From a virus: a stretch of DNA of 35,003 nt. The translations under genes were made by a program, and so were the position numbers. Below are positions 3,784 to 34,355 of the stretch, piece by piece (the stretch's first letter is position 1; each line of letters starts with the position of its first letter). The stretch is from positions 1 to 35,003 of the IMG/VR virus record IMGVR_UViG_3300025133_009203; one strand, given 5' to 3'. The notes beneath the pieces are model-generated. The model had not been told where the DNA came from. It worked only from the letters and a program-made list of their open reading frames with translations, and searched no databases.

Positions 3784-4266
3784 ATGAAGATAGGCAGAAA
3801 TCAACTTAGAAAAATAATAAAAGAAGAGATTAGAAGAATCATGCTTCATGAACAAACTCTGGATATTGATGCAGGTCCCCAGATACAACTCCCTGAGCCT
3901 ATGTCGGGAGAGCCTATAGTGCAGTCAGCTCAGGCTAAAAATATTCAAGGTAAGGCCCGAAAGCAGCTATCGAGCAAGATGCAGACGCGCTACTCCCAAT
4001 ACAAAAGTAATGAGAATCCGGATGCTAAGGGCAGGATTCAATTTACATTTGATGTAGAGGATAGGCCAGCAGGTGATAAAATATTTTCCCAGATGTCAAA
4101 CGTCAAGATAGATAGCAGTTCTCACGATGAGCTGCGACCCCTGATTGATGGATGGAAAGACGGTGTGGATGACTCTCTGAAGATGCTCTGGAGAGGAACA
4201 TCCCCTGGAGAGGCACCAGTTCCTGCTGGAAAGTATACCATTACACTAGTTTTTACACAGAGTTAA
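3784..4266 (+). CDS. Hypothetical protein with LRKIIKEEI-type N-terminal motif
   Basis: The 160-residue product begins MKIGRNQLRKIIKEEIRRIM, nearly the same as the start of the exonuclease at 4989. After a proline-rich linker (about residues 30-50) there is a mixed alpha/beta region with no recognised family, ending in a strand-like AGKYTITLVFTQ. GGAG at 3769-3772 is a good but slightly distant Shine-Dalgarno sequence. The AT-rich ATAATTAAATAA before it could be part of a late promoter. Function unknown. Confidence 0.7.
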   Translation: MKIGRNQLRKIIKEEIRRIMLHEQTLDIDAGPQIQLPEPMSGEPIVQSAQAKNIQGKARKQLSSKMQTRYSQYKSNENPDAKGRIQFTFDVEDRPAGDKIFSQMSNVKIDSSSHDELRPLIDGWKDGVDDSLKMLWRGTSPGEAPVPAGKYTITLVFTQS

Positions 4267-4988: not shown

Positions 4989-5840
4989 ATGAAGATTACA
5001 AGAAGACAGCTGAGAAGCCTCATTAAAGAAGAAATTGTGAGAGAGTCTCGATATTTTGGAATGTCTGTTCCGCAAGTCCTGGCCTTCTTTGACACATTCA
5101 GTGATAATACATGGATCTTCTTTGACACTGAGACAATGGGATTTAAACCTCATGAGCAGCAGCTCACAGAAATAGGCGCCGTTGCAGTCAATCCTCGTGG
5201 ATGGACGGGAGACCCAGAGATCTTAGGGCAGTTTAATGAAAAGATAACACTGCAGCCAGATACTGTTGAACGGCTAAGGCAGGATAAAGCTCTATCTCCT
5301 GAGGAACGTGCTGCAAGAGGAAGAAGTCTCACGTCACCAGAGATATTATCTATGACAAGATATGGTGAGAGCGGCGGAACCTATAAGGATGAGCAAGAGG
5401 TTTTAGATGGGTTCCTAGCGTTTGTGGATTCATTTCCAAATCCTGTGCTTGTTGCACAAAATGCTTCGTTTGACATGAAGTACATATCTGTTAGATCTGG
5501 AGGAAGACTTGGAAGATATCCAGTTATAGATACTATGAGAATTATGCAGCTATTCCTAATACCAGCACTAAGAGCTATGAGAGATGACGATGGAGATGAA
5601 GAGGCGGGAGAGCTATTGTCTAAAATGAAGAGACGAGGAGGATATTCTGCATCTATGGGAGTTGTTTCTGGAGCATATGGTGTCTCCACAGATGAATGGC
5701 ACAACGCCTTAGCGGATGTAAAGATGCTAATGGCACTATTTCAGCATGTAATTGATTCACTAAGAAAGGGATCGGGTGCTAATATACGATCTGGTCAAGA
5801 GTATGCAATTAAACAAATCACTAGAAGAAACAGGCGATAA
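4989..5840 (+). CDS. DEDDh 3'-5' exonuclease (DnaQ-like) with N-terminal LRSLIKEEI motif
   Basis: DnaQ-fold exonuclease, possibly proofreading or processing DNA or RNA 3' ends. All motifs are visible: FFDTETMG (Asp46, Glu48), QNASFDMKYI (Asp162) and the histidine-type HNALADVKML (His238, Asp243). There is a basic or acidic insertion around 195-220. The first 20 residues (MKITRRQLRSLIKEEIVRES) are not part of the exonuclease fold and match the N-termini of the two upstream unknown proteins. The phage polymerase at 11868 carries no obvious exonuclease domain of its own, so this protein could proofread for it; that link is an inference. It ends two bases before the end of the convergent phosphoesterase gene. 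Confidence 0.88.
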   Translation: MKITRRQLRSLIKEEIVRESRYFGMSVPQVLAFFDTFSDNTWIFFDTETMGFKPHEQQLTEIGAVAVNPRGWTGDPEILGQFNEKITLQPDTVERLRQDKALSPEERAARGRSLTSPEILSMTRYGESGGTYKDEQEVLDGFLAFVDSFPNPVLVAQNASFDMKYISVRSGGRLGRYPVIDTMRIMQLFLIPALRAMRDDDGDEEAGELLSKMKRRGGYSASMGVVSGAYGVSTDEWHNALADVKMLMALFQHVIDSLRKGSGANIRSGQEYAIKQITRRNRR

Positions 5841-7349: not shown

Positions 7350-7572
7350 CTCTGGCGTGCTCTCACACAGAGAGCTAGAAAAGAGTTTTTCATTTAATTC
7401 TGTGTTACACCTGGTTGAAATCATTAAGAATATAGATCTAGAAGTTCAGTCTGGAGATATTGTGTTTAACAATGATTCATCATGTCTTTGCTTCAATTCG
7501 ACAAACAAGAAAGAACTTATAAAGACTTTAAAGAATATGAATAGATCGGAGATTTCAATTGACAAAGATTGA
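7324..7572 (+). CDS. Small hypothetical protein
   Basis: An 82-residue protein squeezed between the dUTPase-like gene (26-base overlap) and the HAD fusion gene (14-base overlap). It has the look of a small alpha/beta domain (VLHLVEIIKNIDLEVQSGDIVFNNDSSCLCF) with no recognisable motif. The overlaps suggest translational coupling and a role tied to its neighbours. Confidence 0.6.
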   Translation: MKDSKEIIDSGVLSHRELEKSFSFNSVLHLVEIIKNIDLEVQSGDIVFNNDSSCLCFNSTNKKELIKTLKNMNRSEISIDKD

Positions 7573-8476
7573 AGACCTTTTCTCATCACAGAAAAAATTT
7601 AATGATCTGTTTTATGATCTTAGTAATTTAGATGATTTAGAAAAAGAAGAGATAACGAAATCACTATCACTAGCATTACATTCAGAGGTTAGTTCTCTTA
7701 TTTCTGCAATTAATTTTAAAGATCACAGGCACAATAGAAAGGAAATTGATAAATCAAAAATTTTATTTGAATCAGTAGACTCTTTTCGATATCTTCTTGC
7801 CATATTGAATATTTGGGAAATTTCAAGCAATGAATTCTTACAGGCATTTGAAGACAAGGACATATTTTTAAATCTAAGGCATGAGCACGGAAAGAAGAAG
7901 TGGGAAGGCGAGCCCGTAGTAATTGTTGACTTAGATGATGTCATAGCGGATTTTAGAAGTAATTTCTCTTCTTGGGTTGAAAAGAAGCACAACATAGAAA
8001 TAGATGTAGAGTCACCAGAATATTATTTTATAAATGATCTAACTAAGCATGATATAAATCCCGAGGGAGTATTTTTAGAGTTTGTATCACAAGGTGGGTT
8101 TAGAGATCTAACACTAGTGGATGGTGCAAAAGAGTTTCTAAGCGAACTTAAAGAGAAGGGATACTGGATACACCTGCTTACAGCTCGTCCGTCTGATAAT
8201 ATAAGATGCTTCTATGATACACACGGATGGCTAGCAGATCATGATATCATATTTGATAAGCTATCCTTCAGCTCAGAAAAATTTAGATGGTGTGCTAATT
8301 CAGAGTATTATGATAGTAATTCAATTCAATTTGCAATAGATGACTCACCCAAGCACACAACAGAATACGTGAAGCACGGGATCAAGTGCTATGTACCAGT
8401 TAAAAGCTATAACAAAGAAGTTTGGGAAAAAGAAGGAGTTGTAACTTATGACTCATTTGACTCATTTTTTAAATAA
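7559..8476 (+). CDS. Fusion of a dUTPase/MazG-like domain and a 5'-nucleotidase-like HAD domain
   Basis: The start is TTG 7559 behind CGGAGA. Residues about 25-108 resemble the second half of the upstream dUTPase-like protein (HSEV..., ILFESVDSFRYLLAILNIWEI, KDIFLNLRH). Residues about 118-305 are a HAD phosphatase of the 5'(3')-deoxyribonucleotidase type: VDLDDVIADF (nucleophile Asp124, acid Asp126), LTARPSD, and AIDDSPKH. The combination would remove phosphates from nucleotides, perhaps clearing unwanted dNMPs. The N-terminal domain is partial and may bind rather than cleave. Assignment of the HAD domain is firm; the exact substrate is inferred. Confidence 0.75.
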   Translation: MTKIEDLFSSQKKFNDLFYDLSNLDDLEKEEITKSLSLALHSEVSSLISAINFKDHRHNRKEIDKSKILFESVDSFRYLLAILNIWEISSNEFLQAFEDKDIFLNLRHEHGKKKWEGEPVVIVDLDDVIADFRSNFSSWVEKKHNIEIDVESPEYYFINDLTKHDINPEGVFLEFVSQGGFRDLTLVDGAKEFLSELKEKGYWIHLLTARPSDNIRCFYDTHGWLADHDIIFDKLSFSSEKFRWCANSEYYDSNSIQFAIDDSPKHTTEYVKHGIKCYVPVKSYNKEVWEKEGVVTYDSFDSFFK

Positions 8477-10765: not shown

Positions 10766-11812
10766 ATGGCAAAAGACTATTACATAACTCTAGGAGTAAC
10801 TCAGGATTCTTCTGAAGATCAAATTAAAAAGGCTTACAGGAAGCTGGCATTAAAATATCACCCTGATAAAAATCCAGATGATCCCAGCGCTGAGAAGAAA
10901 TTTAAAGAAATTTCTGAAGCGTATGACTGCCTCTCAGACAAAGAGAAGAGAAATAATTATGATATGTTTCCAGAAGGAGGTGGATCAGGAGATTTCCGAG
11001 CATCTGGGATGGAGGATATCTTTAGTCACTTTAGCGAGATGTTTGGTAATGATTTTGGGTTTAGTCGATCTCGGTCTAGAGATCCTAGAAGGAGAATGTC
11101 AAAGGGAGAGTCTATTGTTCGAGAAATTAGTGTAACACTAGAAGAAGTATTAGAAGGAGCATCTCGTGAAATATCATATTCTAGAGGCCAGTCTTGCAGA
11201 GACTGTTCGGGAAAAGGGTATGCTAGTAATGATGACCTGGGAAGATGTAGGTCATGCCGAGGAAGCGGCCAGGTAGTTTCTGATTTCGGTGCAATGAGGG
11301 TTAGCACTTCTTGTAATAATTGCGGCGGGACCGGCAAGATAATTTTAAATCCTTGTAATGGTTGTGCTGGTGTAGGCGCCATGTTTAAGAATACGTCTAT
11401 CAATATAACGATTCCGCCCGGTATACTTGACGGAAATCAATTGAGAATAGAAGGACACGGTCATTTTTCTCCAGGATATCAAGTACCAGGAGATCTGTTA
11501 GTAAACATATCAGTAAGAAAACATAGAAAATTTGATAGAAAGGGACCTCATATTTACAGTGAAAAGAGAATCTCTTTTAAAGCTGCAGTCCTTGGAGCAT
11601 CTGTTGAAGTCGAACTAATAGATGGAAAGATCAATCTCAATGTGCCTTCAGGAACACAGTCTCAAACAGTTATGAGTGTCGGATCCCGTGGATTGCCAAT
11701 AGATGTGGGTGACCCAGAGCGCGGAAATCACTACGTAGTCATTATAGTTGATGTTCCTAACAAAATATCAGAAGCTGATAGAAAAATTATTGAACAGCTT
11801 GATTTATCATAG
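10766..11812 (+). CDS. dnaJ: DnaJ co-chaperone (type I)
   Basis: A full-length type I J-protein. The J domain is at residues 1-70 with the HPD motif (KYHPDKNP), followed by a Gly/Phe-rich linker (about 71-110). The zinc domain has four repeats: [24 protein letters not shown] and CNGCAGVG. The C-terminal substrate-binding domains carry [19 protein letters not shown]. It should stimulate an Hsp70 ATPase, most likely the host DnaK because none is seen here, perhaps for replication-complex remodelling or virion assembly. It lies between deoxynucleotide and polymerase genes, 9 bases after the previous stop. Confidence 0.95.
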
Positions 11813-27304: not shown

Positions 27305-28357
27305 ATGTCATTAGTATCTCTTTTAAGGAAGTTAATTTTAGAAGAAGCATATCTGCGTGAGGGCGGTTTAAAACTTAGTCCTGAAAAAAGAGATATGCTA
27401 GCACAGCTGACACCAGCTGTTGTTAACGCTGCAGTTGAAATATATACGGCGCTAATAGATCAGTGGAACTTATATTTAGAATCTGTAGGCGAGAAGCCAG
27501 TTCGTGCAATGCGCCCTGTTGGATCTGTAAGTTATTATCAGCAAGACATGTCGCAAGGAAGCGATGCATCGTATGGAGATATTGACTATCTTGTATCATT
27601 CCCATCAGAGTTTGAGGGAGAAGAGTTCGATAGAAGAAGAGATGACAGAAGGGTTACATCTAAATATGAAAATTTATTTGTAAGATTTTTGAATGAAAGA
27701 AGGCCAGACACAGTTGATATAGATGAGACGCTGAGAGGCAGCACGCCACTCATGGTTATGCTTAGGCTTCCGAACGGACAGCTTGTTCAAGTAGACACCG
27801 TTGTAACTTTCCCAAGATATTCTGGGTGGATGGAGGGAAGATACACGCCTGAGCACGGGATTAAAGGGTATACAATTGGAAATCTTTATAAAGCATTGGG
27901 CGACTATCTGGTTATGTCAATTAGTACAGAGGGTGTGATAGTAAGATCCAAGATGGGTCAAAGAGTTCCAAGTAGATTCTCAAGAAGCAAGGGAGTTGAA
28001 ACAGAAAATATAAGCACTAGTATTCAAACCTTTCTTAGAGATATAGCAAAGTATATTATAGGCTCTGAAGAAATTAATGAAGATCCCCTCCTTAGAAATA
28101 ATCCCGGAGTTGATCCACAAAATGTTACAATTGCAGGGCTGGCTTCCGGAATAAAGGGGCTAGCCCTTACTCTTGGAAATCACGGTGTCTATAACTCTGA
28201 TGAAATGTTAAGGACGATATTGTCTAATTATGAAAGCGGGTTGAGAAAAAACGTGGAATCTAAAAGAAGTAGATTTATAGATGATGAATCATATCAAAAA
28301 CTTTTGAAGCTTAATGCTCTCGTTCTTCAAAAAGTAACTAATGAGTTCGGAGCTTAA
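27305..28357 (+). CDS. Pol-beta-type nucleotidyltransferase with LRKLILEEA N-terminal motif
   Basis: A 350-residue protein of the Pol-beta nucleotidyltransferase superfamily. PVGSVSYY (71-78) is the GS motif, GDIDYLV (91-97) gives Asp92 and Asp94, and VQVDTVV gives Asp164. The N-terminus VSLLRKLILEEAYLREG carries the motif shared with genes 3369, 3784 and 4989. The segment GQLVQVDTVVTFPRYSGW...GIKGY resembles the middle domain of the fusion at 29799 (GELVQVDV... GWM... GGVKG), so the two are likely paralogues. It would add nucleotides to RNA, DNA, a protein or a small molecule. It overlaps the phosphoesterase gene by 17 bases. Confidence 0.8.
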   Translation: MSLVSLLRKLILEEAYLREGGLKLSPEKRDMLAQLTPAVVNAAVEIYTALIDQWNLYLESVGEKPVRAMRPVGSVSYYQQDMSQGSDASYGDIDYLVSFPSEFEGEEFDRRRDDRRVTSKYENLFVRFLNERRPDTVDIDETLRGSTPLMVMLRLPNGQLVQVDTVVTFPRYSGWMEGRYTPEHGIKGYTIGNLYKALGDYLVMSISTEGVIVRSKMGQRVPSRFSRSKGVETENISTSIQTFLRDIAKYIIGSEEINEDPLLRNNPGVDPQNVTIAGLASGIKGLALTLGNHGVYNSDEMLRTILSNYESGLRKNVESKRSRFIDDESYQKLLKLNALVLQKVTNEFGA

Positions 28358-29009
28358 GTTGGATTATTTTACGTCAGACCTTCATTTCGGTCACAAGAAT
28401 GTCATACGGTTTTGTGATAGACCGTTTAAGACAGTTCATCAGATGAATGAAGAAATTATTACTAACTGGAATAGAATCATTTCAGATTGTGATAGGGTGT
28501 TTGTTTTGGGAGATGTGTTCTTGTGCCCACCTGAAGAAGCAAAAGAATATATTGAAAAATTAAACGGATATAAGATACTGGTAAAGGGAAATCATGATTA
28601 TAATGAAAAGAAGATGCTCTGGACTGGATTTGATGAATTTTATAAAAGTCTTGACTATAAAATGCCAGATGGAAGGCTCGCGCTGTTAGAGCACAGGCCG
28701 GTGCCTGACTGCATGATTGATGAAAAATATGATCTAATGATGCATGGTCACATTCATGTCGCAGAAAGGGTGAGAGGGAAAAAGATAAATGTCAGTACCG
28801 ATATCTGGGCATTTGAACCAATACCCATATCAACTATCCAGGCTCTAAACCTTGAATCTGCAGATGACAATGAGTTTTTAGATTATAGTATCTCAGAAGA
28901 CGGAGTTATTGAAATATCAGGAAAGTTTCAAATGGAAGATTTCGCCGGAGTTTCAGAAGCTGTGTTTAAGAAAATGAGTAAGCTGTGGCCCAACAGGAGA
29001 AAAAAATGA
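28341..29009 (+). CDS. Calcineurin-like metallophosphoesterase
   Basis: A 222-residue protein with the complete motif series: FTSDLHFGHKNVI (metal ligands), VLGDVFL, VKGNHDYNEK and MHGHIHVAE. The DLHFGHKN start is typical of a group of small phosphoesterases in bacteria and phages with poorly known substrates. Between a nucleotidyltransferase and a cytidylyltransferase-like gene, it might remove 3' or 2',3'-cyclic phosphates from nucleic-acid ends or hydrolyse nucleotides. A C-terminal extension of about 50 residues is not part of the core. It overlaps both neighbours. Confidence 0.88.
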   Translation: MSSELKLDYFTSDLHFGHKNVIRFCDRPFKTVHQMNEEIITNWNRIISDCDRVFVLGDVFLCPPEEAKEYIEKLNGYKILVKGNHDYNEKKMLWTGFDEFYKSLDYKMPDGRLALLEHRPVPDCMIDEKYDLMMHGHIHVAERVRGKKINVSTDIWAFEPIPISTIQALNLESADDNEFLDYSISEDGVIEISGKFQMEDFAGVSEAVFKKMSKLWPNRRKK

Positions 29010-29797
29010 AATTAGGATTATTTGGGGGAGGCTTCAAGCCGTTCACTACTGGACATTTTGCGAAACTAGCTCGCGCAATAGATGATAGTGACAAGGTTTA
29101 TCTATTTTATGGAATTCAGCAGAGAAAGCCGATAAAGATTGGAAAAAGAGGAAAACCGTTAAAGTCGGGACAAAAGTTTAGGCCAATAGGGAGTAGTGGA
29201 AGATTCTATACTCCGGAGGTATCTAAGCAAATTTTTGATATATATGAGGCAGCAATTGAAAGAGAGCTTCCAATGGTAGAGGTTGAATCTACACTGGGCA
29301 CTACGCCTATGAGAAGAGTGTTTGAAATTATTGAAGAGTTTGTAGAAGATCCAGAGATGTATGAGAAAGTTACAATCTATGGCGCCGAAGACACTATTAG
29401 AGATTATCTTAGAAAGCTGTCATATTTTGGAGACCTTATAGAGACAGGAAAAGTACAGCTAGGAGCAATATCTCCAGAGTCTGCAAATGACTATCTTGAT
29501 GAAGAGAGGCTGATGGATATCATAGGACAAAGCGAAGAAAGCTCAATAGTAGCATTAAGATCATACTATCCCGGTGCCTCTCAAGAAGACTTAGAAAGAA
29601 TGCAGAGAATAAGAGGGACTGAGGTTCGAGATATTGCATCAACAGAAGAGGGAATTGAAGAGGCAAAGAGATTTCTTCCGCCATTTTTAAATGATGATGA
29701 GAAGAGCAGGGTTATAGATCTAATGCTCGGAAGGGGAGAATCACCCATGACAGAGAATCACTTAAGATATTTTATTCAAGGAATAATAAGGGGATAG
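29006..29797 (+). CDS. Cytidylyltransferase-like (HxGH-superfamily) nucleotidyltransferase
   Basis: The product begins MKLGLFGGGFKPFTTGHF, the GxFxPxHxGH signature of the nucleotidylyltransferase alpha/beta phosphodiesterase superfamily, with Thr in place of the first His. RGTEVRD near residue 205 corresponds to the ISSTxIR motif. IYGAEDTIRDYL fits the central region. Members include NMN adenylyltransferases and pantetheine-phosphate adenylyltransferases. At 264 residues it is larger than those, with an unusual C-terminal part ending NHLRYFIQGIIRG. The ATG 29006 overlaps the upstream stop (ATGA) and follows CAGGAG; the in-frame GTG 28985 is rejected. The substrate is not clear. Confidence 0.72.
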   Translation: MKLGLFGGGFKPFTTGHFAKLARAIDDSDKVYLFYGIQQRKPIKIGKRGKPLKSGQKFRPIGSSGRFYTPEVSKQIFDIYEAAIERELPMVEVESTLGTTPMRRVFEIIEEFVEDPEMYEKVTIYGAEDTIRDYLRKLSYFGDLIETGKVQLGAISPESANDYLDEERLMDIIGQSEESSIVALRSYYPGASQEDLERMQRIRGTEVRDIASTEEGIEEAKRFLPPFLNDDEKSRVIDLMLGRGESPMTENHLRYFIQGIIRG

Positions 29798-29798
29798 C

Positions 29799-32700
29799 AT
29801 GGCAATACTTTTACCGCCGTCTGTTATTGAGAAGGCAGCATCAAGATTTAAAAAGGTAGCAACACTGTCTGAACAGGCAGAGCTCGAATCACATATATTA
29901 AATTTCTATGAAGATTTCAATATGCCCATGAGTGATCTCTACGAACTAATAGACACAATTCAAATGGGAGAATTGCAAGAGATTCAAGAGAAGATGGACG
30001 GCCAGAATATAACATTCACTGTTATGGACGGTTCTTTATTATTCTTTAGTAAGGGAGCGACATATAAGAGAGTATTATCTGGTGCCGGAATGGATAGGGC
30101 TGGAATCATAGAAAAATATTCATGGAATGACAGCGTCAGAAATGCATTTGTTAAAGCATACGATGCGCTGTCACCAGTTTCTTTGCAGTTTCAAGATTCG
30201 TTATTCCAGAATGGAAAGGTTCTAATTGAGTCAGCGCTGTTAACTCCAGAGAATCCAAATACAATAGTTTATGATGAACCATCAATACGGTTTATTCAGG
30301 CAGCCGCAGTAGCACCAGATACTGTCGTAGATGACGAGGCCTTCAATGAATTTGTATCTTCAGCAGAATCAGGAGCAAATCAGGACTTTCACATGGGATC
30401 TGTTCCATACCTCAGGCTTCTTCGAGCACTAGATATAACTGATGAGGAAACAGGTGAGATTAAATCTTCAATTGATTCTCTACTTAGCCAATATAATTTA
30501 AGTCAAGAAAATACTATGGGTGAATTAGTTCACTCAATGGTTCGTGAAAAATTAGGTGATAGTGTTCCAGAACAACTGCTAGATGCTGCTACTGCAAAGA
30601 TAGCTACGGGAAGAGGAAGCATTGCCAGAGCGTTTAAAAAGATTGATCCAGAAGGCTGGGACAGCTTTAATAATAATATTCTTAAGAGAAGGGCAACGTT
30701 TTTAGCAGATGCGATAATCCCTATTGAAAATATAGTTCAAAGAATTGGGATTCTTGTAATTAGAAATATTGATTTTACTCTCAAGGCAAGCAACAGAGAT
30801 GATCTTTCTAGATTTATTAGCTCTGCTCGCGTCGCATTTGATGGAAATCATATCATTGCAAATCCAAAGGAGCTGGAAGGAATAAGGGTAGCGCTTGCAA
30901 GAATCCAGGCCAATGAAGAATTATTTGAGAAAGCAACTGAGGGAATAGTATTTAAGTGGAAAGATGGCAAAACAAGAAAATTAACCGGAATGTTCACACC
31001 AATAAATAAGCTTAGAGGATTTTTCGCTTACGGTGGAGCTCAAATATCGGGAGGAGATGAGGTGATACAAACTGTCCAGGAAAGAGTTGAAAGTGCGTGG
31101 AGCAGGATGATTAATGAGGGAGGAAACGCATTTAAGGATGCCACAGGCAGAGTGATTACTCGAAGTGAAAGAATACCCAGAGAAGAAGTCTCACCAATCG
31201 TTGCTAGCTTTGTGAGAGATATTTTAGATCCTCTTGGGATGGATCACATTGGTGTTGGAACAACTGTTACAAACTTTCCCGATGTTGGAGATATAGATGT
31301 AGTAGTTGATGCTAAAGATGCCAAAGACGTTAAAGAGAAATTATCAGCCCATCCAGGCTTGCAGGTAGAGCTCGAAGAGGCCCCGGGAATAAACAGACTA
31401 TACATGCTGCCTGGCGGCAGCGGGATAGCAGTTCTATATAAGGTTCCACTTACAGGCGAATTAGTCCAAGTTGATGTGATGCCGAGCAAGGGAGTGGCAC
31501 TCGATGATGTTGGGTGGATGCTAGCTGGAGCACCTGAGGGGGGAGTTAAAGGGAGATATAGAAATATTCTTTTATCGTGGATAGCAAAGAATATGAGCGA
31601 AAGAGAATCGGCTGAGACAGGAGATGTTGTTAAGTACACATACGCACGAGGTCTTTTAAAGAAGGTTAATAATGTACCCATAGGGCCTAGAGAGACTGAC
31701 CCAGATGTCTTCCTCCCATCTCTTGGCATAAATACTCATAAGAAGGAGCTAAGATCATTTGAAGGGCTAGTGACAGCAATGAGAGCTAATCCAGAGCTAA
31801 GCGCAATACTACCGGGATTCAGAGAGTACATTAGTAATAGAAGCCACCTACTAAGTACAGATCCTGCTAGAGCCGCTGAGGCAAATGCTGCAGCAGACTA
31901 TATCGATGGAGTTCTCAATGAAGTTGTCAGGCTAAGCATCAGAAGGCTTTTAACTGAAGAAGATGAGGGAGATGATGATATCGCATTACATGCCAGCGGC
32001 CTTCCAACAGGAGATGAAACAGATTCGCCTTCAGATATGACCCATATCACAACTGACTGGCTTCGAAGAAACTCTGTCACAGCTGCAGATCATCCAGCAG
32101 CAGCGGCAATTTATAAGCCGGATACTAATTCATATTATGCAGATTCAATCCCGTATCTTCTTTTAGGATATGAAGATGCAGCTGAAGAGCGAGAGGGCGA
32201 ACAATTTGAAGCAGGCATAATAGATTACACAGCAGCTCAGTTTCCAGGCACAGCGAAAGCAACTAGAATCGGGGGAGAGGGAGAGGACTTGAGCTGGAAT
32301 GGAGTTAGGTATGAGTCAAAGAAATCAAAAACGAATTCTCCCACGCTTATGTTTAATTCAACATTTCCCAAAGCTTCAGACGATCTATACTATTTGTTTA
32401 CGACAAACGTTCCAAACAGAGCTCAGATAAAGGAGATATTGGGAGAGATACGAACTGCATCTGGAGACAGATTCATGGAGGACTGGAAAAATCTCGGTCC
32501 TGAGGATAGATCTGCAATGGCATCCATGTGGAGAGATGAGATGGAGTCATACGCATCTGAGCAGCTTAAAGTAGATAAGCATGTGAAAGAGCTGCAGGCC
32601 TCACTAGATACGTGGGATGACCCTTCTCGTCTAGCTGTACAGGGAGATCCGGTTGAAGATCTAAGCGACAGAGAGGAAGAGGTTAATTTAAAGAGAGAGA

Positions 32701-33170
32701 TTACGGGGCAAATAAAAGAAGCTAAAATTCGAGCAATGACTGTTAAGGATCATGATGGGAATGATATCACCTTTACTTCTAAGAAAAGTTTTAAGGACTA
32801 CATCTCAAGTAGAAAAGCATTAATTAGCTCTAGCTCTGACAGCTTCAAGAGATTAAAAAATCTCGGCTTCAATATGAAGGTGTATATTGTACCGAGCGCA
32901 GTATTGAGGAAGACAATAGTAGATTCAGCATTTCCTGGAATATTTGATTCTGTTACAGGAAAGCCAGATGCTGAAAAATTAGTCAAGCAGATTAAAGACT
33001 ATCTTGATAATTTTGGACTAGAGTACAAGATAGCCAACAAGATAGCTCCCCAGCTAGTTCAAGAGCTTGTATCTGGTCTAGAATCACCCCATGAAAAGGG
33101 CTGGTCAATGAACATGGGATTATTAAATGTCAGAGTAAAGATCTACATTGAACCCAAGAAGGCAGTATAA
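29799..33170 (+). CDS. Three-domain fusion: ligase-like, Pol-beta nucleotidyltransferase and PD-(D/E)XK nuclease-like
   Basis: A 1123-residue protein. Residues about 45-410 resemble an ATP-dependent ligase/nucleotidyltransferase core: EKMDGQN (Lys65 as probable AMP-accepting lysine), VLIESALL (Glu144), EGIVFKW (381-387) and RKLTG (393-397), with a large helical insertion at about 165-340. Residues about 475-600 are a Pol-beta nucleotidyltransferase: GVGTTVTNF, VGDIDVVVD (Asp498, Asp500) and LVQVDVM (Asp559). After the helical motif LNEVVRLSIRRLLTEED (706-722) comes a nuclease-like domain with GEDLSWNGVRYESKKS (Asp830, Glu839, Lys841), followed by SPTLMFNSTFPKASDDLYYLF. The helical motif matches the shared N-terminal signal of other proteins, marking a fusion point. 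The nuclease call is the weakest. Confidence 0.65.
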   Translation: MAILLPPSVIEKAASRFKKVATLSEQAELESHILNFYEDFNMPMSDLYELIDTIQMGELQEIQEKMDGQNITFTVMDGSLLFFSKGATYKRVLSGAGMDRAGIIEKYSWNDSVRNAFVKAYDALSPVSLQFQDSLFQNGKVLIESALLTPENPNTIVYDEPSIRFIQAAAVAPDTVVDDEAFNEFVSSAESGANQDFHMGSVPYLRLLRALDITDEETGEIKSSIDSLLSQYNLSQENTMGELVHSMVREKLGDSVPEQLLDAATAKIATGRGSIARAFKKIDPEGWDSFNNNILKRRATFLADAIIPIENIVQRIGILVIRNIDFTLKASNRDDLSRFISSARVAFDGNHIIANPKELEGIRVALARIQANEELFEKATEGIVFKWKDGKTRKLTGMFTPINKLRGFFAYGGAQISGGDEVIQTVQERVESAWSRMINEGGNAFKDATGRVITRSERIPREEVSPIVASFVRDILDPLGMDHIGVGTTVTNFPDVGDIDVVVDAKDAKDVKEKLSAHPGLQVELEEAPGINRLYMLPGGSGIAVLYKVPLTGELVQVDVMPSKGVALDDVGWMLAGAPEGGVKGRYRNILLSWIAKNMSERESAETGDVVKYTYARGLLKKVNNVPIGPRETDPDVFLPSLGINTHKKELRSFEGLVTAMRANPELSAILPGFREYISNRSHLLSTDPARAAEANAAADYIDGVLNEVVRLSIRRLLTEEDEGDDDIALHASGLPTGDETDSPSDMTHITTDWLRRNSVTAADHPAAAAIYKPDTNSYYADSIPYLLLGYEDAAEEREGEQFEAGIIDYTAAQFPGTAKATRIGGEGEDLSWNGVRYESKKSKTNSPTLMFNSTFPKASDDLYYLFTTNVPNRAQIKEILGEIRTASGDRFMEDWKNLGPEDRSAMASMWRDEMESYASEQLKVDKHVKELQASLDTWDDPSRLAVQGDPVEDLSDREEEVNLKREITGQIKEAKIRAMTVKDHDGNDITFTSKKSFKDYISSRKALISSSSDSFKRLKNLGFNMKVYIVPSAVLRKTIVDSAFPGIFDSVTGKPDAEKLVKQIKDYLDNFGLEYKIANKIAPQLVQELVSGLESPHEKGWSMNMGLLNVRVKIYIEPKKAV

Positions 33171-33454
33171 TGCCCGCAGTCAGCGTTCAGGATATGGAGG
33201 CCATATTAGATAAGTTAGGCTTTGTTTCAGAGTATGTTGGCGACTGCGACGACTGGGTTACTGTGAAGAAACAGGTGCTTTTAAATCTCCCGCCCGCAGC
33301 TAGAAAGAATTTTTCCACTAGAGATTCTAAAACTAAAGAGCAATGGCTGAATGATTTTGAGAAAGATCTGATTATTTATTATAAAGAACTTACGGGCGTA
33401 GATCTAGTTCTTAGAAGTCTAGATGAGAGAAGGGAGATGTTTGATGTCTTATGA
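33170..33454 (+). CDS. Small hypothetical protein
   Basis: A 94-residue protein whose ATG overlaps the previous stop by one base (TAATG). It is mostly helical and acidic, for example DMEAILDKLGFVSEYVGDCDDW and SKTKEQWLNDFEKDLIIYYKELTG. No family recognised. Coupling to the fusion protein suggests a partner role. It overlaps the next gene by 11 bases. Confidence 0.65.
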   Translation: MPAVSVQDMEAILDKLGFVSEYVGDCDDWVTVKKQVLLNLPPAARKNFSTRDSKTKEQWLNDFEKDLIIYYKELTGVDLVLRSLDERREMFDVL

Positions 33455-34355
33455 TGAAAAACTTTTAAGAGAATTTGTTAAACACTCGCTTGGCTCTGTG
33501 AGAATCGATGAGGTCCTCACTTCCGACGCTTCGGCCAAAGGTGGGCGAGGTGAGGGATCAGCAGCCGGATCACCAGCACCCCTGTCCTACAGTGAGCGGT
33601 GGGGATACGGAAGACATACAGCTGTTCAAGCAAAGGGAATATGGGGAAAGGTTTTTGGCTTGCCACAGTCATTTTTTGATTTGAAGGATGCTCTTTTCGG
33701 AAACTATACTGGCGGCTGGTGTGAAGAAGGGAGGACTTGTCCAGGACTTTTTCCAGCAATAGTAGATGTCGCAACACAGTGGGGAAAGAAACTAATAGAC
33801 ATTCTTTTTAATACAGCAAATCCCCCTCCCACAAATGCCGGCGCAGAAGCTATGGGTGCCGGTCTCTTTCCAAAACTAAAATCATACTATACAAACCCAA
33901 CTGCAGCTAGATCTCCAACAACTCTCAATCTTACAGAGTCAATGACATGGAACGATGTCTCTATTATTCTTGAACAATCAGAGGGTGCTGATTTAATTTC
34001 TGCTGTAATTGGAGATCTTCAAGGCATTGAAGACTTAGTCAAAATGATAAGTAACGCATCTGATCTTGTAGATCTTATGAAAATGTGGCAGAATCTAACC
34101 GGAGACACAGGAGGAACTCAGGAGTTATCAGCTGTGATGTCTGATGCAAATGATGGTGCTGGTATAAGTGATGCAGATTTCGGAGCTGGCGGAATACCAA
34201 GTGTTATAAGCGAATTTATTAATTCAATAGCAAGGCCAATGATTTCAGGAGTTGTGGCAGATACACGTGATGAATTGATTAACATAGGCTTACCCCCTGA
34301 TGTAGAATCTGCTATCAAAGGTGCATTTGATAGCACAATTAGAAAAATCTCTTAA
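33444..34355 (+). CDS. Hypothetical protein with LLREFV N-terminal motif
   Basis: A 303-residue protein. The start is ATG 33444 behind GGGAGA; an in-frame ATG at 33423 lies inside the previous gene without a good ribosome site. The N-terminus YDEKLLREFVKHSLGSVRIDEVL is again of the recurrent helical type and is followed by a Gly/Ser/Ala-rich linker (about 30-52). The centre (GRHTAVQAKGIWGKVFGLPQSFF... FPAIVDVATQWGKKLIDILFN) and the C-terminus (helical, with moderately hydrophobic segments) are not recognised. It may be a virion or internal head protein. Confidence 0.6.
   Translation: MSYDEKLLREFVKHSLGSVRIDEVLTSDASAKGGRGEGSAAGSPAPLSYSERWGYGRHTAVQAKGIWGKVFGLPQSFFDLKDALFGNYTGGWCEEGRTCPGLFPAIVDVATQWGKKLIDILFNTANPPPTNAGAEAMGAGLFPKLKSYYTNPTAARSPTTLNLTESMTWNDVSIILEQSEGADLISAVIGDLQGIEDLVKMISNASDLVDLMKMWQNLTGDTGGTQELSAVMSDANDGAGISDADFGAGGIPSVISEFINSIARPMISGVVADTRDELINIGLPPDVESAIKGAFDSTIRKIS

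Follow-up and report, generated by a model that had tools for sequence, protein, structure and literature searches.

A putative phage polyprotein with ligase and nucleotidyltransferase domains in an island of predicted end-repair enzymes, and its candidate prohead-protease sites

Gene Layout of the Island

The window analysed here is the whole of virus record IMGVR_UViG_3300025133_009203, a fragment of 35,003 bases. Between positions 27,305 and 33,454 it carries an island of genes for putative nucleic-acid end-processing enzymes, built around a 1123-amino-acid (aa) putative polyprotein that is called the fusion below. We describe these genes and weigh the reading that their products are packaged in the phage head, processed by a prohead protease and ejected with the genome. 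The island consists of the following open frames (a slash in a motif marks a candidate cut).

27305..28357, plus strand: Pol-beta-type nucleotidyltransferase, 350 aa; residues 1-19 are propeptide-like, ending LRE/GGLK
28341..29009, plus strand: calcineurin-like metallophosphoesterase, 222 aa (PF00149, phrog_547)
29006..29797, plus strand: HxGH nucleotidylyltransferase (GGFKPFTTGH ... RGTEVR); the frame is open from 28985
29799..33170, plus strand: the fusion, a 1123-aa putative polyprotein of a ligase, a polymerase X (PolX)-like nucleotidyltransferase and a possible PD-(D/E)XK nuclease
33170..33454, plus strand: 94-aa protein of unknown function, with same-place homologues in loci L005, L006, L008, L011 and L012

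The first-pass annotation had described four consecutive overlapping genes followed by a small one. All of them are present and the first two pairs overlap, but the HxGH gene and the fusion are one base apart; the small frame does begin with a one-base overlap, at 33170. The motifs named for the fusion also lie where they were placed: KMDG at residues 65-68, EGIVF at 381-385, KLTG at 394-397, GDIDVVVD at 497-504, VQVD at 556-559 and D830-x8-E839-x-K841. The probable start of the HxGH gene is ATG 29006 rather than 28985; its homologues begin at the position matching this ATG (MKLGLFGGGFKPFTTGH).

The fusion matched nothing above a curated cut-off in Pfam, PHROGs, NCBIfam or PADLOC, and the 94-aa protein had no match in the family libraries. 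As a single-sequence query against viral contigs, the whole fusion also returned nothing, and an alignment-based search was needed. Elsewhere the window encodes a DNA polymerase, thymidylate synthase, dCMP deaminase, thymidine kinase and endolysin. Its closest relative is the 118-kb contig G001 (locus L005), which is collinear with the entire window at 62.9-103.6 kb. G001 encodes a prohead protease of the S77, T4 gp21 type (PF03420, E 2.6e-26) and a gp23 major capsid protein (PF07068); terminase- and portal-like genes adjoin them. On these grounds, the window phage is most likely a relative within the T4 superfamily. The order of the island is kept in relatives. The domains and folds of the ligase and nucleotidyltransferase, motif conservation, gene linkage, the pattern of the candidate sites, and the S77 protease and gp23 of the relative were computed directly.

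The Ligase Domain

29880..31040, plus strand: ligase domain, residues 28-414 of the fusion; motif I EKMDG at 29988-30002, motif IV EGIVF, motif V KLTG

The ligase was modelled from 44 sequences with a predicted local distance difference test (pLDDT) score of 88.9. The 41 top VIA-align rows were polynucleotide ligases without exception, with RNA ligases in the lead at Z about 7-8.5. T4 RNA ligase 1, fungal Trl1, the Naegleria RNA ligase and T4 RNA ligase 2 reached 7.8-8.5 and archaeal RNA ligases about 7; DNA ligases scored 5.6-6.6. Together with the invariance of K65, this bears out the ligase core that had been proposed around Lys65, and a ligase of RNA-ligase fold in the N-terminal part of the fusion is well supported by the model. 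By sequence, Pfam RNA_ligase (PF09414) scored 20.1 bits against the fusion, under its gathering cut-off of 27. Sequence-profile searches of the PDB with parts of the fusion gave spurious repeat-protein and low-score matches only and were uninformative, so the fold evidence relies on models.

To collect the family, viral contigs were scanned with an alignment of the window ligase and three relatives. At least 461 contigs carry it, although the family is almost unannotated, and 80 relatives were kept; five further related proteins sit on short contigs of metagenome-assembled genomes (genome_contigs). All 80 full-length rows share E64, K65, D67, G68, E381, G382, F385, K394, T396, G397, F399, P401 and N403, and in this alignment the conservation of the ligase motifs exceeds chance. 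The second Lys of motif V is replaced by Thr396 in all 80 rows, with E381-G382 and K394 kept. The motif III Glu of the wider family (fusion residues 136-154) is moved by two residues in the window (E144) and is absent from the L008 and L011 ligases.

Nucleotidyltransferases and C-Terminal Region

31119..31958, plus strand: PolX-like nucleotidyltransferase, residues 441-720 of the fusion
32043..33167, plus strand: C-terminal region, residues 749-1123 of the fusion, possible PD-(D/E)XK nuclease; D830, E839 and K841 at 32286-32321

The fold of the internal domain agrees with the nucleotidyltransferase read there from motifs. Its model (pLDDT mostly 80-92) matched the palm and thumb of Pol beta, Pol lambda and bacterial PolX at Z about 10; the best VIA Z was 10.2 across 191 residues, with residues 1-233 of the model as the query. 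Foldseek gave Pol lambda at E 3.9e-5, and viral PolX proteins also matched. The metal-binding GDxD (G497-D498-x-D500) and D559 are invariant in homologues, and the model supports well a nucleotidyltransferase of PolX palm-plus-thumb fold. The 27305 protein is its paralogue (hhalign probability 88.5, E 2.7e-6); six homologues all keep its G73-S74, G91-D92-x-D94 and Q162-V-D164. Contigs could not be scanned with the nucleotidyltransferase alignment, which was too divergent. In L006 (6959-8263) and L008 (6254-7555), the first nucleotidyltransferase has about 80 extra N-terminal residues, tagged at the start, ahead of its EGGLK site.

The C-terminal region is possibly a PD-(D/E)XK nuclease. D830, E839 and K841 are kept, within GExFE ... 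GxDL ... YExKK, in the window, L005 and L008, which are three sequences only. A conserved GExFE helix precedes the D-x8-E-x-K motif, and the model puts a strand across ExK with moderate confidence (pLDDT about 60-80). A scan with this region returned the L005 and L008 contigs alone; other relatives differ in their C-terminus.

An alternative is a DNA repair or end-joining machine, similar to LigD or to PolX with a ligase, that seals the phage genome where it arrives gapped or broken. The best matches of the nucleotidyltransferase are indeed DNA polymerases beta and lambda and PolX, a nuclease-like motif shares the chain, and the phosphoesterase shows weak similarity to PdeM, a ligase-associated family (23.2 bits, cut-off 150). 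However, the ligase is closer to RNA ligases than to DNA ligases by the Z values above. Stand-alone ligase relatives stop at motif V, which leaves no room for an oligonucleotide-binding (OB) domain, and the PolX thumb family PF14791 had no sequence match at E 10. We regard this alternative as improbable.

Partner Enzymes and Linkage to Head Genes

The phosphoesterase at 28341 exceeds the PF00149 cut-off (28.3 bits against 21.5, E 2.8e-6), matches phrog_547 at E 4.5e-44 and is held at the same position in L005, L007, L008 and L012. In the HxGH protein, G-x-F-x-P and the H are invariant. It is homologous to HxGH domains fused with the ligase in relatives, and in these domains CTP_transf_like is above or near its cut-off. 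HxGH is fused to or adjoins the ligase in 63 of the 66 loci that are not cut by a contig end (before it in 43, after it in 10, adjacent in 10); the downstream fusions include L013, L017 and L033. In the clade of the window, HxGH is followed by the ligase and then the nucleotidyltransferase, often with the phosphoesterase in front. HxGH, the ligase and the nucleotidyltransferase form a single 933-aa protein in L006 and are separate genes in L007, L009 and L010. Thus the proposed gene linkage exists in relatives, against the possibility that homologues are never linked. A 653-aa HxGH protein also adjoins the ligase in the huge phage LR756500 (L004:9238-11199); its N-terminal ENLDGS resembles a decayed second ligase motif I, and this stretch had no significant sequence match.

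Further enzymes are fused to the HxGH-ligase protein in relatives: a HAD phosphatase with DFDDTL in L016, L024 and L026, and a zeta-toxin/AAA_33-like P-loop kinase in L023, L050, L079 and L081. Zincin-like or ParB-like parts occur in some members of the family. The HAD and kinase fusions fit end healing and sealing, the role that the first-pass annotation had compared with Pnkp-type repair, but the window island gave no match to a kinase family, and hence no 5'-OH kinase domain, in family-library searches, and the Pnkp label is too specific.

Another possibility is a system centred on nucleotides or nicotinamide adenine dinucleotide (NAD), in which the HxGH enzyme makes NAD or a nucleoside diphosphate (NDP)-ligand, while proteins or small molecules are nucleotidylated by the ligase fold, for instance during virion assembly. 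There are weak matches to nicotinamide mononucleotide (NMN) and pantetheine-phosphate adenylyltransferases, and T4 Rnl1 is also a tail-fibre attachment factor according to its PHROG name. Every such match is far under its cut-off, and the HAD and kinase partners and the two Pol-beta nucleotidyltransferases suit polynucleotide ends better, which makes this possibility highly improbable.

The ligase loci are usually close to head genes. Of the 72 loci that extend far enough, 56 have a terL gene on the same strand, 523-6446 bases downstream; the portal gene usually comes next and then, where the sequence reaches, a prohead protease. Intein-like inserts break up the portal gene of the huge phage LR756508 (L002:20374-24534), leaving three homologous blocks.

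Candidate Processing Sites and Helical Tags

29862..29870, plus strand: candidate cut site LSE/Q before the ligase, residues 22-24; residues 10-26 have pLDDT under 50
31110..31124, plus strand: candidate cut site INE/GG between the ligase and the nucleotidyltransferase, residues 438-442; the flanks have pLDDT under 50
31932..31958, plus strand: tag and candidate cut site LSIRRLLTE/E before the C-terminal region, residues 712-720; pLDDT under 50
29750..29794, plus strand: LRxxI tag at the HxGH C-terminus (TENHLRYFIQGIIRG); profile score 25.2, above every shuffle
33423..34355, plus strand: 310-aa protein with an N-terminal LREFVKHSL tag, within a tag-bearing block

It turned out that the ligase and both nucleotidyltransferases mostly start with Gly-Gly directly after [LI]xE when they are fused or preceded by other residues, and with Met-Gly-Gly when unfused. 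Neither these putative sites and head-packaging signals nor the size of the family had been noted in the first-pass annotation. Because the two nucleotidyltransferases are related to each other, the pattern amounts to two independent cases, one for them and one for the ligase. The pattern [LIVMF]xE/GG stands ahead of the ligase in 65 of 84 family members. Among 53 distinct ligase sites, P3 is Leu or Ile in 51 and P1 is Glu in 49, with Gly-Gly at P1'P2'; P2 is free (entropy 2.94 bits) and P5-P10 are varied (entropy 3.2-3.7). The junction between the ligase and the nucleotidyltransferase reads [LI]xE/GG or /SG in the window and in all five fused relatives; the unfused L007, L009 and L010 nucleotidyltransferases begin there with M-GG. 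Relatives of the 27305 nucleotidyltransferase likewise start at [LI]xE/GG or M-GG. The window site before the ligase, LSE/Q, corresponds to ITE/Q in L005 and LVTE/G in L006. At the junction with the C-terminal region, LR/IR..L.E motifs are found in L005, L008, L011 and L012, and the L006 protein ends at this point. Propeptides such as MSLLSNYLAESLLKE, MNKLANYLVEQLLQE and MDRLVKQLITPFITE stand before the HxGH domain; they are common in fusions, and other HxGH domains start directly. In N-terminal residues 7-26, [LI]xE is present in 62% of island-type enzymes and in 23% of shuffles. A double-glycine leader of the bacteriocin type was set aside because unfused copies retain Gly-Gly.

Proteins of the window clade repeatedly carry the helix LRxxIRxx[LI] at their termini and junctions, with as many as 8 in 29 proteins where shuffling predicts about 0.15. 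The strict pattern has no match in the window itself. A position-specific scoring matrix (PSSM), with the window and G001 left out of its training set, picks out three window proteins, among them the HxGH protein at its end and the exonuclease described below at its start, and in G001 four of its five best matches fall within 12 kb around the island. The G001 homologue of the 310-aa protein has a PSSM p of 0.0004. A DnaQ-type exonuclease at window 4989-5840 (PF00929, E 1.1e-7) has the N-terminus TRRQLRSLIKEEI, an island-type tag, and might therefore also be packaged in the head. The 160-aa protein at 3784-4266 bears an N-terminal LRKIIKEEI tag and belongs to no clear family.

The main competing explanation is ordinary cytoplasmic RNA repair, as by T4 Pnkp/Rnl1 or RlaP with an RNA ligase; LxEGG would then be no more than a conserved cap at the N-terminus of each domain. 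It is favoured by the RNA ligases among the top fold matches and by the HAD and kinase fusions in relatives. Phages also commonly couple RNA ligases with Pol-beta nucleotidyltransferases and phosphatases, calcineurin-like ones included (PMC7824862). Such a cap would not lead one to expect nearly fixed P3 and P1 around a free P2, LxE that is mostly missing only at M-GG starts, propeptide-like N-termini, or loci that in most relatives adjoin terL and portal. The RlaP family PF10127 also gave no match at E 10 in the window and six relatives, while control sequences were detected. Overall, we find cytoplasmic repair unlikely, though the strongest of the alternatives.

Discussion

We favour packaging in the head and estimate the probability of the whole reading, in which processed end-repair enzymes are ejected with the genome, at about 0.55. 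The ligase, the PolX-like nucleotidyltransferase and the possible nuclease would be made as one chain, with the second nucleotidyltransferase, the phosphoesterase and the HxGH nucleotidylyltransferase encoded alongside. Short N-terminal propeptides and the LRxxIRxx[LI] helices would serve as capsid-targeting signals. In the prohead, a T4 gp21-type S77 protease would cut after [LI]xE, mostly ahead of Gly-Gly, and release the enzymes. These would be ejected together with the phage DNA and, in the early stage of infection, trim broken ends, fill them and seal them again. We infer cleavage at the pattern, packaging, ejection, activity and substrate. Packaging and proteolytic release are probable, judging from the sequence pattern, the genome position and the protease of the collinear relative.

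In T4, propeptides of 10-19 residues are capsid-targeting sequences that gp21 removes; head proteases cut after Glu, and a foreign protein given such a sequence is packed and delivered (PMC9026906). The protease of the giant phage SPN3US cuts after A-x-E (PMC10052503). In the open-access literature searched, we found no report of a head-packaged RNA ligase. The cargo of the T4 head includes, among others, an ADP-ribosyltransferase and a restriction inhibitor.

Several observations speak against packaging and release. We found no prohead protease gene in the 35-kb window, which is itself a fragment, and in the window clade the island is apart from the head genes, by about 70 kb in G001. The ligase's own candidate site has no Gly-Gly in this clade. 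N-terminal [LI]xE is raised in other genes of the loci too (38% against 19%), so the signal is not specific to repair enzymes. LxEGG as a general signal for all proteins of the loci was rejected, with 5 cases seen elsewhere and 9 expected. The site counts rest on homologous, non-independent sequences and fragmentary metagenomic contigs. Finally, the Thr in motif V and the shift or loss of the motif III Glu in the window clade make the ligase activity uncertain and possibly impaired.

As the substrate, RNA, for example host-cleaved tRNA, is somewhat favoured over DNA because of the RNA-ligase fold and the HAD and kinase partners. The PolX-like fold and the nuclease motif keep DNA possible. It is about an even chance that these proteins form a widespread and almost unannotated class of phage polyproteins, from which the prohead protease frees a repair kit at [LI]xE/GG for injection before phage gene expression. 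If packaging and release are confirmed, phages could mend broken RNA or DNA from the onset of infection, before tRNA- or DNA-cutting defences stop translation, and the recurring [LI]xE and LRxxIRxx[LI] peptides in these proteins would have one explanation. One member of the ligase family is named and isolated, Microcystis phage Mel-JY01, which makes the packaging claim directly testable; its protein WWT39297.1 carries the candidate site IIAE/GGLGGHMNHPF.

Other Genes in the Window

The window also encodes a 333-aa protein with a glutamine-synthetase catalytic domain (1529-2530; PF00120, E 2.4e-16), which is unusual for a phage, and a complete DnaJ-like chaperone with J, zinc-finger and C-terminal domains (10766-11812). 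A fusion of dUTPase_2-like and NT5C/HAD parts lies at 7559-8476, and the polynucleotide kinase family phrog_415 also matches it.

Comparison with Known Systems

T4 RNA ligase 1 (gp63), Rnl2 and the ligase domain of fungal Trl1 share with the window ligase the core fold, K-x-D-G, EG and the motif V Lys. The window ligase differs in the change of the second motif V Lys to Thr, a large helical insertion, a PF09414 score below the cut-off, and its place within a multi-enzyme chain with processing-like junctions. Bacterial LigD also combines a ligase, a polymerase and a nuclease in a single chain, as predicted for the fusion, with unrelated types of polymerase and nuclease. The RlaP and RNA ligase modules of jumbo phages likewise couple a Pol-beta nucleotidyltransferase with an RNA ligase and phosphatases (PMC7824862); the island differs from them in the missing PF10127 match, the PolX-like fold, the HxGH partner and the putative packaging in the head.

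Phage polyvalent proteins are also multi-enzyme chains near packaging genes, and zincin- or ParB-like parts like theirs occur in some ligase-family members; the passages on ligases in that source describe none with a ligase domain (PMC5512222). In contrast to polyvalent proteins, the domains of the fusion appear, from the sequence pattern, separable by a prohead protease. The closest parallel in delivery would be the internal head proteins and Alt of T4, which are targeted to the capsid, cut by gp21 and ejected. With these the island enzymes share a short N-terminal propeptide ending in [LI]xE, an S77 protease in the phage and, in most relatives, head genes nearby. They differ from the T4 proteins, which are single proteins, in that the cargo would be putative repair enzymes in a multi-site chain.

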